This document shows, piece after piece, positions 15,226 to 59,114 of a stretch of 64,000 nucleotides of DNA. Position 1 is the stretch's first letter, and every line of letters begins with the position of its first letter. The DNA is from Chitinophaga vietnamensis (GTDB lineage: Bacteria > Bacteroidota > Bacteroidia > Chitinophagales > Chitinophagaceae), in contig NZ_CABHMS010000001.1 in the NCBI RefSeq assembly GCF_902167635.1, positions 868,001 through 932,000 of the forward strand. Reading direction: 5' to 3'. A program made the position numbers and the translations under genes. The notes under the pieces are model-generated. The model made no database searches, had not been told where the DNA came from, and saw nothing but the letters and a program-made list of their open reading frames with translations.

Positions 15226-15257
15226 TTTTGGAATAACAGGTGCGCCGCCTATCTTTG
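15226..15257 (+). promoter_or_regulatory. Bacteroidota-type promoter for the sulfite reductase operon
   Basis: TTTTG at 15226-15230, 19 bases, then TATCTTTG at 15250-15257 match the -33 TTG / -7 TAnnTTTG consensus of the Bacteroidota primary sigma factor. Transcription would start near 15262-15266, about 215 bases before the reductase ATG, leaving a long leader with the features described next. Confidence 0.8.
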
Positions 15258-15284
15258 TATTACTCTACTAAAATTATAGGAAAT

Positions 15285-15350
15285 ATGGGTAATGGACGAA
15301 TGAATGGAACTTGTTGCTGTTGGTCAATGACCCGGGAGGCGCGTGTATGA
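15285..15350 (+). CDS. Cysteine-rich leader peptide (putative attenuator peptide)
   Basis: A 21-codon open frame just downstream of the promoter contains three consecutive cysteine codons TGT-TGC-TGT at 15312-15320 followed by Trp (peptide core NGTCCCWS). A second in-frame ATG is at 15300. A weak AGGA precedes the first ATG by three bases. Sulfite reductase supplies sulfide for cysteine synthesis, so runs of Cys codons in its leader are just what a ribosome-mediated attenuator would need: scarce Cys-tRNA stalls the ribosome there. Poly-cysteine upstream frames with a similar role are known in actinobacteria. Translation of this frame is inferred, not shown. Confidence 0.65.
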   Translation: MGNGRMNGTCCCWSMTREARV

Positions 15351-15386
15351 TGATGTACAGCTGATCTGAATCAGTCATTTTATACG

Positions 15387-15422
15387 AAGTCTCCGGAGAA
15401 ACAACCGGGGGCTTTATTTTTT
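15387..15422 (+). terminator. Putative leader (attenuator) terminator upstream of the sulfite reductase
   Basis: AAGTCTCCGG at 15387-15396 pairs with CCGGGGGCTT at 15405-15414 (ten pairs, two of them G-U), with an 8-base loop, followed by TTATTTTTT. It lies 57 bases before the reductase ATG and after the Cys leader frame, so it would stop transcripts before the structural genes. The left arm can alternatively pair with 15332-15340 inside the leader frame (eight pairs with one bulged G), which is a possible antiterminator. Confidence 0.7.
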
Positions 15423-15478
15423 GTGAACAGTATATTCCCCTTATCAACCGTTTTTACCACCACCAGAAAATATTTTTT

Positions 15479-17596
15479 ATGCAAAGCTTCAGAACAGAAC
15501 TCGAAAATCCGGTCGTAGCACGTGATATCATTGAGCTGGAGAAAAAAATACGCCTGTTCCGCGAAGGCAGCATCCCGGAAGAAAAATTCCGCAGCCTGCG
15601 ACTGGCGAGAGGGGTGTATGGCCAGCGCCAGCAAGGGGTGCAGATGGTGCGCATCAAATTGCCCTATGGTAAAATGACCTTACAGCAATGGAAACGCATC
15701 GCTGATATCTCCGACGAATATTCTACCGGCAACCTCCACCTCACCACCCGTCAGGATGTGCAGATACATTTCGTGAGTCTGGAAAAAACCCCCGAGCTGT
15801 GGTCCAAACTGGAGCTGGACGATATCACTATCCGGGAGGCCTGTGGCAACACGGTGCGTAACATCACCGCGTCGGACCGCGCCGGCATCGACCCGGAAGA
15901 GCCCTTTGACGTAACGCCTTATGCAGATGCAGCTTTCCGCTACTTCCTGCGTAACCCGGTGTGCCAGGATATGGGCCGCAAGATCAAAATAGCTTTTTCC
16001 TCCAGCGATAAAGATACCGCCTGGACTTTCATGCACGATTTCGGTATGATACCCAAAGTAAGAACGGTGGACGGCAAAACCGTGCGCGGCTTCAAAGTAT
16101 TGGTGGGCGGCGGTTTGGGCGCACAGCCTTTCCTCGCCAAAACGGCTTACGAGTTCCTGGAAGAAGACCTCCTCATTCCTTACATCGAAAACGTACTGCG
16201 CGTATTTGACCGCCACGGTGAAAGAGCCAGCCGCCACAAAGCCCGCATGAAATTCCTCGTGCAGAAACTCGGCTGGGAAGAATTTGAACGCCTGGTAAAA
16301 GAAGAATATAAAGCAGTGAAACAGAAACTGGTAAAAGTAGACCATACCGCCTGGGAAGCTACCCAGCCGCCGCTTACAGGCGCCGTACCTGCTTATACCA
16401 TTAAAGATCCGAAGAAATACGAAGCCTGGAAAAAGACCAACACCTTCGAACAGAAACAAGCTGGATACTTTGCAGCCTATGTGAGAGTGCCGCTGGGTAA
16501 TATCAGTTCTGATGCCAGCCGTCAGCTGATCGCCGCGCTGCGCCCCGTGATCGCGGATGATGTGCGCGTAACCGCCAACCAGGGCCTGCTCCTGAAATAC
16601 ATACTGCCGGCGCATCTGCCCTATGTGTTCAGTGCATTGGAAGAAGCTGGCTTTGCAGAACCTGGCTTCGACAGCATCGCCGATATTACGGCATGTCCCG
16701 GTACAGATACCTGCAACCTCGGTATCTCCAGCAGCACCGGCATCTCCCAGGCATTGGAAGAAGTGATCGCCGCTGAATTTTCCGATCTCATCTACAACCG
16801 CGATATCAAAATCAAGATCAGCGGATGTATGAACTCCTGCGGCCAGCACGGTATTGCCAGCATCGGCTTCCACGGCAGCTCATTGAAAAGCGGCGGTAAA
16901 GTACTGCCCGCATTACAAGTGCTGCTCGGCGGCGGCATCGTTGGCAACGGCGAAGGACGCGTAGCCGACAAAGTGATCAAAGTGCCCAGCCGCCGCGGTC
17001 CCGACGTATTGCGCACCCTGCTGCACGACTATGAGATCAACAGCGAAGCCAAGGAATTATTCAATCAATATTACGACCGCAAAGGTGAAAAATATTTCTA
17101 CGAACTGCTGAAGCCACTGGCAGATCTCAGCAACCTCAGCGAAGATGCTTTTATTGACTGGGGCCAGGCTACACAGTTTGCTACCGCCATCGGTGTGGGT
17201 GAGTGCGCAGGCGTAGTGATCGACCTCGTAGCCACCCTTTTGTTTGAAGCAGAAGAAAAATTGCAGTGGGGCACGGAAACGCTGGCCAATGGCGCGTTTG
17301 CAGATACCATCTACCACGCATATGCTTCTTTCGTACAGGCTGCAAAAGCACTGTTGCTCGGTGAAGGCGTAAGCTGTAACACACAAAGCGGTATCATCAA
17401 TGATTTCGACAAGCATTTTGTAGCTACTGGAAAATTCACCTTTGAGAAAGATTTCAAATCGCTGGTGTTGCAGATCAATGAACACGAGCCCACTGAAACC
17501 TTTGCCAGACAATACTTCCAGCAGGCGCAATCTTTTTACGATGCAGCACAGGTATACCGCGTAAGCAATGCCGCCGCTGCAGCAGCGCAGGCCTGA
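15479..17596 (+). CDS. Siroheme sulfite/nitrite reductase with C-terminal HEPN-like domain
   Basis: This 705-residue protein has two ferredoxin-like half-domains and two siroheme/[4Fe-4S] domains of the NirA/CysI family. The cluster and siroheme ligands are Cys406 and Cys412 (TACPGTDTC) and Cys450 and Cys454 (SGCMNSCGQHG). It catalyses six-electron reduction of sulfite to sulfide or nitrite to ammonia; the siroheme genes and Cys-codon leader favour sulfite. After about residue 565 a helical extension of 140 residues (EAEEKLQWGTETLANGAFAD and on) resembles a HEPN domain, which is not part of the standard enzyme. The start is the ATG at 15479, directly after the leader. Next come cobA (31 bases) and a siroheme synthase gene, evidently one operon. 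Confidence 0.9.
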   Translation: MQSFRTELENPVVARDIIELEKKIRLFREGSIPEEKFRSLRLARGVYGQRQQGVQMVRIKLPYGKMTLQQWKRIADISDEYSTGNLHLTTRQDVQIHFVSLEKTPELWSKLELDDITIREACGNTVRNITASDRAGIDPEEPFDVTPYADAAFRYFLRNPVCQDMGRKIKIAFSSSDKDTAWTFMHDFGMIPKVRTVDGKTVRGFKVLVGGGLGAQPFLAKTAYEFLEEDLLIPYIENVLRVFDRHGERASRHKARMKFLVQKLGWEEFERLVKEEYKAVKQKLVKVDHTAWEATQPPLTGAVPAYTIKDPKKYEAWKKTNTFEQKQAGYFAAYVRVPLGNISSDASRQLIAALRPVIADDVRVTANQGLLLKYILPAHLPYVFSALEEAGFAEPGFDSIADITACPGTDTCNLGISSSTGISQALEEVIAAEFSDLIYNRDIKIKISGCMNSCGQHGIASIGFHGSSLKSGGKVLPALQVLLGGGIVGNGEGRVADKVIKVPSRRGPDVLRTLLHDYEINSEAKELFNQYYDRKGEKYFYELLKPLADLSNLSEDAFIDWGQATQFATAIGVGECAGVVIDLVATLLFEAEEKLQWGTETLANGAFADTIYHAYASFVQAAKALLLGEGVSCNTQSGIINDFDKHFVATGKFTFEKDFKSLVLQINEHEPTETFARQYFQQAQSFYDAAQVYRVSNAAAAAAQA

Positions 17597-17627: not shown

Positions 17628-18404
17628 ATGAACAACATACAACCGAAACTTGTGCTGGTGGGAGCGGGTCCTGGCGATCCGGAACTGATCACCGTGAAAG
17701 GTCTGAAAGCCATACAGCAAGCCCGTGTGATCCTTTATGATGCATTGGCCAATAACGATCTGCTGGAACATGCGCCTGCCAATTGCCTCTGCCGCTTTGT
17801 GGGCAAGCGCGCCGGCATGCACGTGTACTCCCAGGATGAGATCAACCGCATGATCGTGAAGTATGCATTGACTTACGGAAATGTTGTACGTTTGAAGGGA
17901 GGCGACTCCTTTGTGTTCGGCCGCGGGCAGGAAGAGATGTCTTTCGCCCAGCAGTTCGGCATCGCTACGGAAGTGATACCGGGCGTTAGCAGCGCCATCG
18001 CGGTGCCGGGTATGAACAAGATACCTGTCACCGCACGCCATATCAGCGAAGGGTTTTGGGTGATCACCGGCACCACGCAGCAGGGTAATCTCTCCCGCGA
18101 CCTGGAACATGCCATACAAGCCAATACCACCGTAGTGATACTGATGGGAATGAGTAAACTGGCGGAGATATCCGCGATATATGAAGCACAGGGCAAAGGC
18201 GCTACGCCTGCGGCTATCATCCAGAATGGTACGCTGCCTACGCAGCAACTGGGCGTAGGCCATGTGGCAGACCTGGCGCAGATCGCCGCCGAACACCAGC
18301 TGCATAACCCCGCGATCATCGTGATCGGCGAAGTAGTGCGTTTTCACGACGCATTCCAGGCCTTGCAGCAAAGGGTGTCTGAAGGATTAAAAATAGCAGT
18401 ATAA
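17628..18404 (+). CDS. cobA: Uroporphyrinogen-III C-methyltransferase (SUMT)
   Basis: A 258-residue protein starting at the ATG 31 bases after the reductase stop (an earlier in-frame ATG inside the reductase gene is rejected). It shows all SUMT marks: VGAGPGDPELITVKGL at the N terminus, LKGGDSFVFGRGQEE, IPGVSSAIAVPG and the later MGMSKL. It methylates uroporphyrinogen III twice with S-adenosylmethionine to give precorrin-2, the branch point to siroheme, the cofactor of the upstream reductase. Its stop overlaps the start of the next gene by one base (TAATG), which implies coupled translation. Confidence 0.95.
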   Translation: MNNIQPKLVLVGAGPGDPELITVKGLKAIQQARVILYDALANNDLLEHAPANCLCRFVGKRAGMHVYSQDEINRMIVKYALTYGNVVRLKGGDSFVFGRGQEEMSFAQQFGIATEVIPGVSSAIAVPGMNKIPVTARHISEGFWVITGTTQQGNLSRDLEHAIQANTTVVILMGMSKLAEISAIYEAQGKGATPAAIIQNGTLPTQQLGVGHVADLAQIAAEHQLHNPAIIVIGEVVRFHDAFQALQQRVSEGLKIAV

Positions 18405-18994
18405 TGGATAATCAGCTGTTTCCCGTATTTTTCAAGTTACACCGCCTCCACGTACTAGTGGTAGGCGGTGGCAACATTGGATTGGAAAAGGCCAATGCTA
18501 TCCTGCAGAACTGTGCTGACAGCACCCTCACGGTGGTGTCGCTCAGTTTCCTGCCGGAACTGGAAGCGCTGGCGCATCAATATCCCAATGTAACACTGGT
18601 GCAGAAAGCTTTCTCCTGTGGCGACCTGCTGGGCAAAGACCTGGTGATCGCCGCTACCAACGATAAAGAGCTGAATTATTGCATCTGGGAAAAAGCGAAG
18701 GGAAGCAAAGTATTGATCAATGTGGCCGACACACCGGAGCTGTGCGACTTCTACCTCGGTTCTATTGTACAAAAAGGAAACCTCAAAATTGCCATCTCCA
18801 CCAACGGCAAATCCCCCACTGTGGCCAAACGCCTGAAACAGGTATTACAGGAAGCCATACCCGATACGCTGGATGAAGTGCTGAACAAATTGCATATTAT
18901 CCGCGATAAACTCAAAGGCGATTTTGCCAGCAAAGTGAAGCAGCTGAACAGCCTCACCGATGTGCTGGTGAAAAACGAAAACAAAGAAGCCTGA
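18404..18994 (+). CDS. Precorrin-2 dehydrogenase / sirohydrochlorin ferrochelatase (CysG N-terminal / Met8-like)
   Basis: A 196-residue protein with an N-terminal NAD-binding fold (LHVLVVGGGNIGLEKANAIL), the conserved AATNDKELN motif, and the ferrochelatase part with AISTNGKSPTVAKRLK. It oxidises precorrin-2 to sirohydrochlorin and inserts iron, completing siroheme. Together with cobA and the reductase it forms a self-contained sulfite reduction unit: apoenzyme plus prosthetic group. Separate cobA and Met8-like genes replace the fused CysG of enterobacteria. Its stop codon abuts the stop of the opposite-strand DUF488 gene without a single spacer base. Confidence 0.93.
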   Translation: MDNQLFPVFFKLHRLHVLVVGGGNIGLEKANAILQNCADSTLTVVSLSFLPELEALAHQYPNVTLVQKAFSCGDLLGKDLVIAATNDKELNYCIWEKAKGSKVLINVADTPELCDFYLGSIVQKGNLKIAISTNGKSPTVAKRLKQVLQEAIPDTLDEVLNKLHIIRDKLKGDFASKVKQLNSLTDVLVKNENKEA

Positions 18995-58824: not shown

Positions 58825-58899
58825 GGGAGTTTAGCTCAGCTGGTTCAGAGCATCTGCCTTACAAGCAGAGGGTCGATGGTTCGAATCCGTCAACTCCCA
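58825..58899 (+). tRNA. tRNA-Val (UAC), copy 1
   Basis: All four arms fold: acceptor GGGAGTT with AACTCCC, D arm GCTC/GAGC, anticodon stem TCTGC/GCAGA with loop CTTACAA (anticodon TAC, reading GUA valine codons), T arm GATGG/CCGTC with TTCGAAT. The 3' CCA is not encoded. First of three identical copies. Confidence 0.97.
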
Positions 58900-58926
58900 C
58901 ACTTCAAAATAATAAAGATCTTTTCA

Positions 58927-59001
58927 GGGAGTTTAGCTCAGCTGGTTCAGAGCATCTGCCTTACAAGCAGAGGGTCGATGGTTCGAATCCGTCAACTCCC
59001 A
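58927..59001 (+). tRNA. tRNA-Val (UAC), copy 2
   Basis: Identical in sequence to copy 1 over all 75 bases. The 27-base spacer before it (CACTTCAAAATAAT-type) is nearly repeated before copy 3, which indicates tandem duplication with spacer. Confidence 0.97.
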
Positions 59002-59030
59002 CACTTCAAAATAATTAAAGATCTTTTTAA

Positions 59031-59105
59031 GGGAGTTTAGCTCAGCTGGTTCAGAGCATCTGCCTTACAAGCAGAGGGTCGATGGTTCGAATCCGTCAAC
59101 TCCCA
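59031..59105 (+). tRNA. tRNA-Val (UAC), copy 3
   Basis: Identical to copies 1 and 2. A terminator follows after nine bases, so the three are probably processed from one transcript. Confidence 0.97.
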
Positions 59106-59114
59106 CAACATAAT

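Follow-up and report, generated by a model that had tools for sequence, protein, structure and literature searches.

The operon of Chitinophaga vietnamensis that encodes a nitrite/sulfite reductase-domain (NIR/SIR) protein and two siroheme enzymes is most likely preceded by a classical ribosome-mediated transcription attenuator that senses cysteine (probability roughly 0.88). The region belongs to the window that we analysed, a stretch of 64,000 nucleotides from a genome of 6.3 Mb, and comprises the following features:

15227..15257, + strand: promoter, TTTG at 15227-15230 and TATCTTTG at 15250-15257, 19 nt apart (read from the sequence)
15261..15280, + strand: palindromic operator-like site TACTCTACTAAAATTATAGG, over the predicted transcription start (pattern match)
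15285..15350, + strand: leader ORF MGNGRMNGTCCCWSMTREARV followed by TGA, 21 codons, stop at 15348-15350 (read from the sequence; counterparts in 64/79 congeners)
15312..15320, + strand: regulatory Cys codons TGT-TGC-TGT (read from the sequence)
15332..15352, + strand: 5' strand of the antiterminator (15332-15340, 15342-15347 and 15349-15352), spanning the leader stop (folding)
15381..15396, + strand: 3' strand of the antiterminator, of which 15389-15396 doubles as the 5' arm of the terminator (folding and duplex comparison)
15387..15420, + strand: intrinsic terminator, hairpin 15387-15414 plus T-rich tail (folding; conserved in relatives)
15479..17596, + strand: nitrite/sulfite reductase-domain protein, 705 aa (Pfam PF01077 and PF03460)
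17628..18404, + strand: uroporphyrinogen-III C-methyltransferase of the cobA/cysG C-terminal type (TIGR01469, above cut-off)
18404..18994, + strand: precorrin-2 dehydrogenase of the siroheme synthase N-terminal type (TIGR01470, above cut-off)

In the mechanism that we propose, the leader would be transcribed from the promoter at 15227-15257 and its 21-codon ORF translated by a ribosome. When Cys-tRNA is ample, the ribosome would reach the stop codon at 15348 and cover approximately 15332-15360, allowing the terminator at 15387-15414 to form and switching the operon off. When Cys-tRNA is scarce, the ribosome would stall at 15312-15320 and leave 15332-15352 unpaired, and this segment would bind 15381-15396 once transcribed, leading to read-through into the reductase and siroheme genes. 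Initiation would probably be governed by an Rrf2-family repressor acting through the overlapping palindrome.

Direct reading of the sequence bears out the 21-codon frame with TGT-TGC-TGT at 15312-15320 that the original prediction had put forward, as well as the reductase ATG at 15479; nine codons separate the Cys run from the leader stop. Over both strands of the window, 15 ORFs contain three Cys in six codons, and a hairpin at least as stable as -8 kcal/mol follows six of these. The strongest is that of the ORF at 15285 (-14.7 kcal/mol, against -8.2 to -9.9 kcal/mol for the other five). Taken alone, the window therefore excludes a chance origin of the leader and hairpin only modestly, and the decisive evidence for the leader is comparative. 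Loss of the Cys codons and stem among close relatives had been set beforehand as the outcome that would speak against the attenuator, and the attenuator withstood this comparison. The reductase gene is present in all 79 congeneric genomes searched (split in two pieces in one), and a Cys-run leader, defined as an ATG ORF after the promoter with two Cys within five codons, lies upstream of it in 64 of the 79, against a mean of 5.3 and a maximum of 12 in shuffled sequences and 5/79 on the reverse strand, these counts being non-independent trials as the rows are related species. Under a strict rule of three Cys in six codons, 39/79 congeners have a leader, 37 of them with a terminator in that scan, whereas shuffled sequences yield 0.5 leaders and no leader with a terminator. 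Over 71 leaders of the family, Cys is encoded by TGT 147 times and by TGC 73 times, and Cys codons make up 220 of 1647 codons in frame versus 72 and 42 of 1576 in the other two frames, an excess that is partly by construction since the leaders were selected for in-frame Cys.

The predicted terminator before the reductase ATG is likewise borne out by folding, with a hairpin at 15387-15414 (-14.7 kcal/mol, z -3.7) and then a T-rich tail. A T-tailed hairpin follows each of the 71 family leaders (64 of them in Chitinophaga), including L062, where the scanner caught a partial hairpin and the full one was seen on rescan. The original prediction had looked to covarying stem bases in relatives, and across 69 aligned leaders the terminator stem indeed persists while bases on both its sides vary: alignment columns 101-128 show six pair types, and columns 104-125 are CG in 63, TA in 4 and other in 2. 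We rejected the idea that this hairpin is the 3' end of the upstream gene, because that gene lies on the opposite strand.

Within the genus, presence of the terminator is associated with that of the leader (64/64 congeners with a Cys leader, 7/15 without; Fisher 2.5e-7, on related rows). The 15 exceptions were rescanned for hairpins because the initial terminator scan had missed several. The seven that keep a terminator (-11 to -24 kcal/mol) have no Cys (L007, L065, L074 and L077), a single Cys (L083 and L084) or, in L082, the Cys run in an ORF without a stop before the reductase. The rescan of the other eight congeners was negative for five; for three it gave a poor hairpin (-7.3 to -7.4) that differs from the terminator. 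Loss of the start ATG does not hold as the state of the leaderless congeners. On a tree of 57 rows, eight leaderless rows require three changes. 

The leader ORF could in principle encode a functional small Cys-rich protein, with the terminator only setting its ratio to the operon. Its frame is Cys-rich and the peptide begins with MGN in many Chitinophaga, but by eye the peptides share little beyond richness in Cys, Met and Asn and vary from 14 to more than 50 codons, and the region of the stop codon is constrained by RNA pairing, all of which makes a protein function very improbable. A similarly low probability attaches to control of the terminator by a metabolite riboswitch or a protein-binding RNA instead of the ribosome: the leader is structured and about 215 nt long, yet no Rfam family reached its gathering cut-off over the leader region (the best sub-threshold matches fell far below), and by eye no sequence block is shared across families between the Cys run and the terminator.

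The antiterminator required by ribosome-mediated attenuation was recovered by folding, in agreement with the prediction that 15332-15340 can pair with the left arm of the terminator. This segment pairs with 15389-15396, and 15342-15347 continues the pairing with 15381-15386; the hairpin within 15331-15396 reaches -23.2 kcal/mol (z -2.7), and in the RNA 15361-15396 folded alone the 5' arm of the terminator is unpaired. Over the 71 family leaders the antiterminator duplex has a mean energy of -11.7 kcal/mol versus -7.5 kcal/mol in shuffled sequences, single duplexes attaining p 0.05 in only 35/71. The pairing segment starts between -21 and +5 from the leader stop in 69/71 leaders; in L009 it starts at -28, and in L062 it is misplaced owing to the partial hairpin in the scan. 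Column-wise covariation of the antiterminator could not be demonstrated in the leader alignment, as this region aligns poorly. Swapping of arms between species showed little discrimination, the own arm being better in 59% of swaps, and is uninformative within the genus because the arm is too conserved.

We modelled the ribosome as covering 13 nt from the A-site codon and scored the pairing of the arm before the 3' arm of the terminator exists. In Chitinophaga, the modelled sequestration of the arm is 0.76 for a ribosome held at the first Cys codon and 0.15 for one at the stop, compared to 0.49 and 0.41 in shuffled controls, and 63/63 leaders (L062 left out) switch more strongly than their shuffled counterparts. 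In 60 modules outside the genus the values are 0.75 and 0.21, versus 0.47 and 0.34 when shuffled, and the modelled switch is stronger than after shuffling for 55/60. Modelling thus supports the geometry originally proposed, in which stalling would free 15332-15340 and a ribosome at the stop codon would mask it. At full-length equilibrium, the terminator has a mean probability of 0.79 with the ribosome stalled and 0.95 with the ribosome at the stop (63 leaders); it is lower in the stalled state in 50/63 and below 0.5 in 10/63. Since equilibrium prefers the terminator even when the ribosome is stalled, the modelled switch would have to work during transcription. Classical attenuators likewise depend on folding during transcription.

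Leader-peptide attenuators of the trp/his type are known from amino-acid operons of Proteobacteria. The leader described here resembles them in having a run of codons for the presumed end product of the pathway before probable biosynthetic genes: the Cys-rich short ORF and a predicted intrinsic terminator between it and the first gene are both present, while modelling adds an antiterminator that excludes this terminator and that a ribosome halted at the stop would cover. It differs from them by the cysteine signal, the Bacteroidota host, the palindrome at the start site and the tandem copies found in relatives.

The poly-Cys ORFs of Actinobacteria are reportedly termed leaderless in the title of a 2020 study by Canestrari. 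Here, by contrast, a 5' UTR is predicted, and a predicted transcription start at about 15262-15264 with an ORF at 15285 speaks against a leaderless ORF. The Cys-rich leader frames that the original prediction mentioned for Actinobacteria do appear in the available text of the work describing them, as short ORFs with a Cys run before cys genes and a proposed cysteine feedback, with no conserved terminator hairpin and with the Cys run close to the stop (Seliverstov 2005, PMC1262725). The short Cys-run ORF and the proposed cysteine feedback are shared, whereas the leader described here has a conserved predicted intrinsic terminator and a Cys run that is not near the stop.

In the same phylum, the consulted portion of a study of Flavobacterium psychrophilum reports 'strong clues' to attenuation by leader peptides ahead of amino-acid operons, with conserved 5' elements that include those of pheA and hisG; its main text mentions cysteine once, in the name of a protease (PMC9723704). 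A Bacteroides study, in the part available, describes sORFs within long 5' UTRs. The searchable literature yielded little on the regulation of sulfur assimilation in Bacteroidota, and among the matches listed from openly licensed papers there was no report of a similar Cys attenuator in this phylum. The original prediction knew of no such layout in Bacteroidota. The arrangement is not confined to this genome and recurs in other Bacteroidota families (see below).

Promoters of Bacteroidota have the form TTTG/TAnnTTTG. Both boxes of the predicted promoter are present, and the pair is also found upstream of the reductase in 78/79 congeners, compared to a mean of 0.35 in mononucleotide shuffles; it would place the transcription start at about 15262-15264. 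All 78 congeners with the box pair also carry the pattern TCTAY-N5..9-RTRGR no more than 35 nt from the second box (0-1 in shuffles), including all 15 that lack a usable Cys leader; this is the broader of two operator patterns, a narrower one having matched 31/79 congeners. The site at 15261-15280 is perhaps a Rrf2/CymR-like repressor site, and a conserved palindrome over the predicted start suggests that initiation is probably regulated too.

CymR is the Rrf2-family cysteine repressor of Firmicutes. In the genome studied here, an Rrf2-family gene adjoins cysH, which has a similar operator-like site upstream. The protein matches the superfamily model TIGR00738 and scores on the CymR model NF047409, yet with 70.5 bits, below the cut-off of 195, and is thus not CymR by that model; we infer that it is the putative protein binding the reductase palindrome. 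A genome-wide search with the typed site gave as its best four matches two identical copies of cysH, one Cupin_8 gene and the reductase site. Among the looser matches are a TauE-type sulfite exporter and a PhyH gene; these are unproven, since with up to two mismatches a reversed control pattern outnumbers the operator pattern (57 and 65 matches versus 19 and 18). On contig C9 of G000, at about 295120-303875 (L120 and L121), the Rrf2 gene, cysH, cysD and the start of cysN are duplicated in inverted orientation, with 3525 identical bases forming a perfect inverted copy that is either a true palindrome or an assembly artefact.

These data also bear on the possibility that the operator and its repressor provide the true regulation and that the leader is minor or a decaying relic. 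The retention of the palindrome in 78/79 congeners, even where no usable Cys leader is left, and the similar site upstream of cysH beside the Rrf2-family gene are in its favour; nevertheless the genome studied here has an intact leader, antiterminator and terminator, and 64/79 congeners retain these parts despite rapid change of the peptide. We consider this explanation unlikely, though less so than the other alternatives to cysteine attenuation.

Downstream of the leader, the NIR/SIR-domain gene is followed by two siroheme genes. The closest solved structures to the reductase bear the name of nitrite reductase, its named relatives reach up to 84% identity, and none of the NCBIfam models scores above its cut-off. 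The original designation as a sulfite reductase operon draws on the operon context and the leader, not on a match to a curated family. The reductase sequence alone would fit sulfite as well as nitrite as substrate. As the codons of the leader name the amino acid sensed, they argue for a sulfite and not a nitrite reductase, and based on leader and operon context the product of 15479..17596 is probably an assimilatory sulfite reductase. Beyond its NIR/SIR domains, the protein has a long C-terminal stretch without a Pfam match of its own. Elsewhere in the window, three consecutive tRNA-Val (tac) genes with identical scores occupy 58825-59106.

Outside the genus, a leader with three Cys in six codons together with a terminator was found at 7/39 loci from other Chitinophagaceae, 17/20 from other families of the order, 15/40 across the class and 10/54 in a set of named non-Chitinophaga loci, with 0-1 in the shuffled sets. 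The order and class loci were hand-picked from 107 and 68 matching genomes, sometimes several per family, so these fractions are not phylum rates; some loci occur in two sets (e.g. L204 and L274, L014 and L169), and in five class loci the start does not fall exactly at the start codon. Two modules in series lie upstream of the reductase at 8/20 order loci (L224, L232-L236, L238 and L242) and 7/40 class loci (L274, L282, L287, L288, L293, L305 and L309), as well as at L205 of the named set; in L224 and L282 the second ORF starts within the first hairpin.

Pontibacter and Botryobacter also have poly-Cys ORFs upstream of the reductase (L179, L180, L183, L185, L193, L171, L176 and L177), and a terminator scan of these eight loci found none in five, the matches in L176 and L177 being doubtful. 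Those without a terminator possibly use a different mode of control. Moreover, on the minus strand of L251 (about 1498-1542) the ORF MFFLSHTCCCCCCC terminates some 60 nt upstream of a gene resembling cysteinyl-tRNA synthetase (cysS, named from its sequence), with no terminator in view between them. Such loci would be consistent with translational coupling or factor-dependent termination in place of intrinsic termination, an explanation that is improbable here given the T-tailed hairpin before the reductase of the window.

Apart from Cys, the leaders that support cysteine attenuation are enriched in Met (start codons excluded): 3.7-fold over composition in the 64 Chitinophaga leaders, 1.6-fold in 7 from other Chitinophagaceae and 3.6-fold in 53 from other families, although some of these Met may be alternative starts. 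Asn is also enriched (2.7- and 1.8-fold). In the other families, 70 Met are found no more than two codons from a Cys, against 38 at a greater distance (odds ratio 7.1); in the Chitinophaga leaders Met-Cys clustering is not significant (p 0.11). As Met is enriched, and outside the family lies beside the Cys run, the leader may read both sulfur amino acids.

We tentatively suggest, as a possibility that we hold to be somewhat doubtful, a Bacteroidota-wide and fast-evolving class of Cys/Met attenuators, sometimes serial and stacked on an Rrf2-type operator of sulfur genes. If so, mixed Cys/Met runs would sense both products of sulfide assimilation, two serial attenuators would steepen the response, and the Rrf2-type operator would mark other sulfur genes as well. 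The tandem copies and the losses within one genus provide natural comparisons for the gain, doubling and loss of attenuators, and could show whether Cys and Met are sensed jointly.

Finally, a search of 296 genomes of the phylum with a six-Cys codon pattern yielded the cysS-like leader and PhyH-like ones, while six-Cys matches do not hold up as leaders generally, most being chance frames within other genes (30 loci inspected, one per genome). In L262 and L271, a gene that by eye resembles the PhyH-family gene of L332 is preceded by poly-Cys ORFs, which themselves follow an operator-like site.
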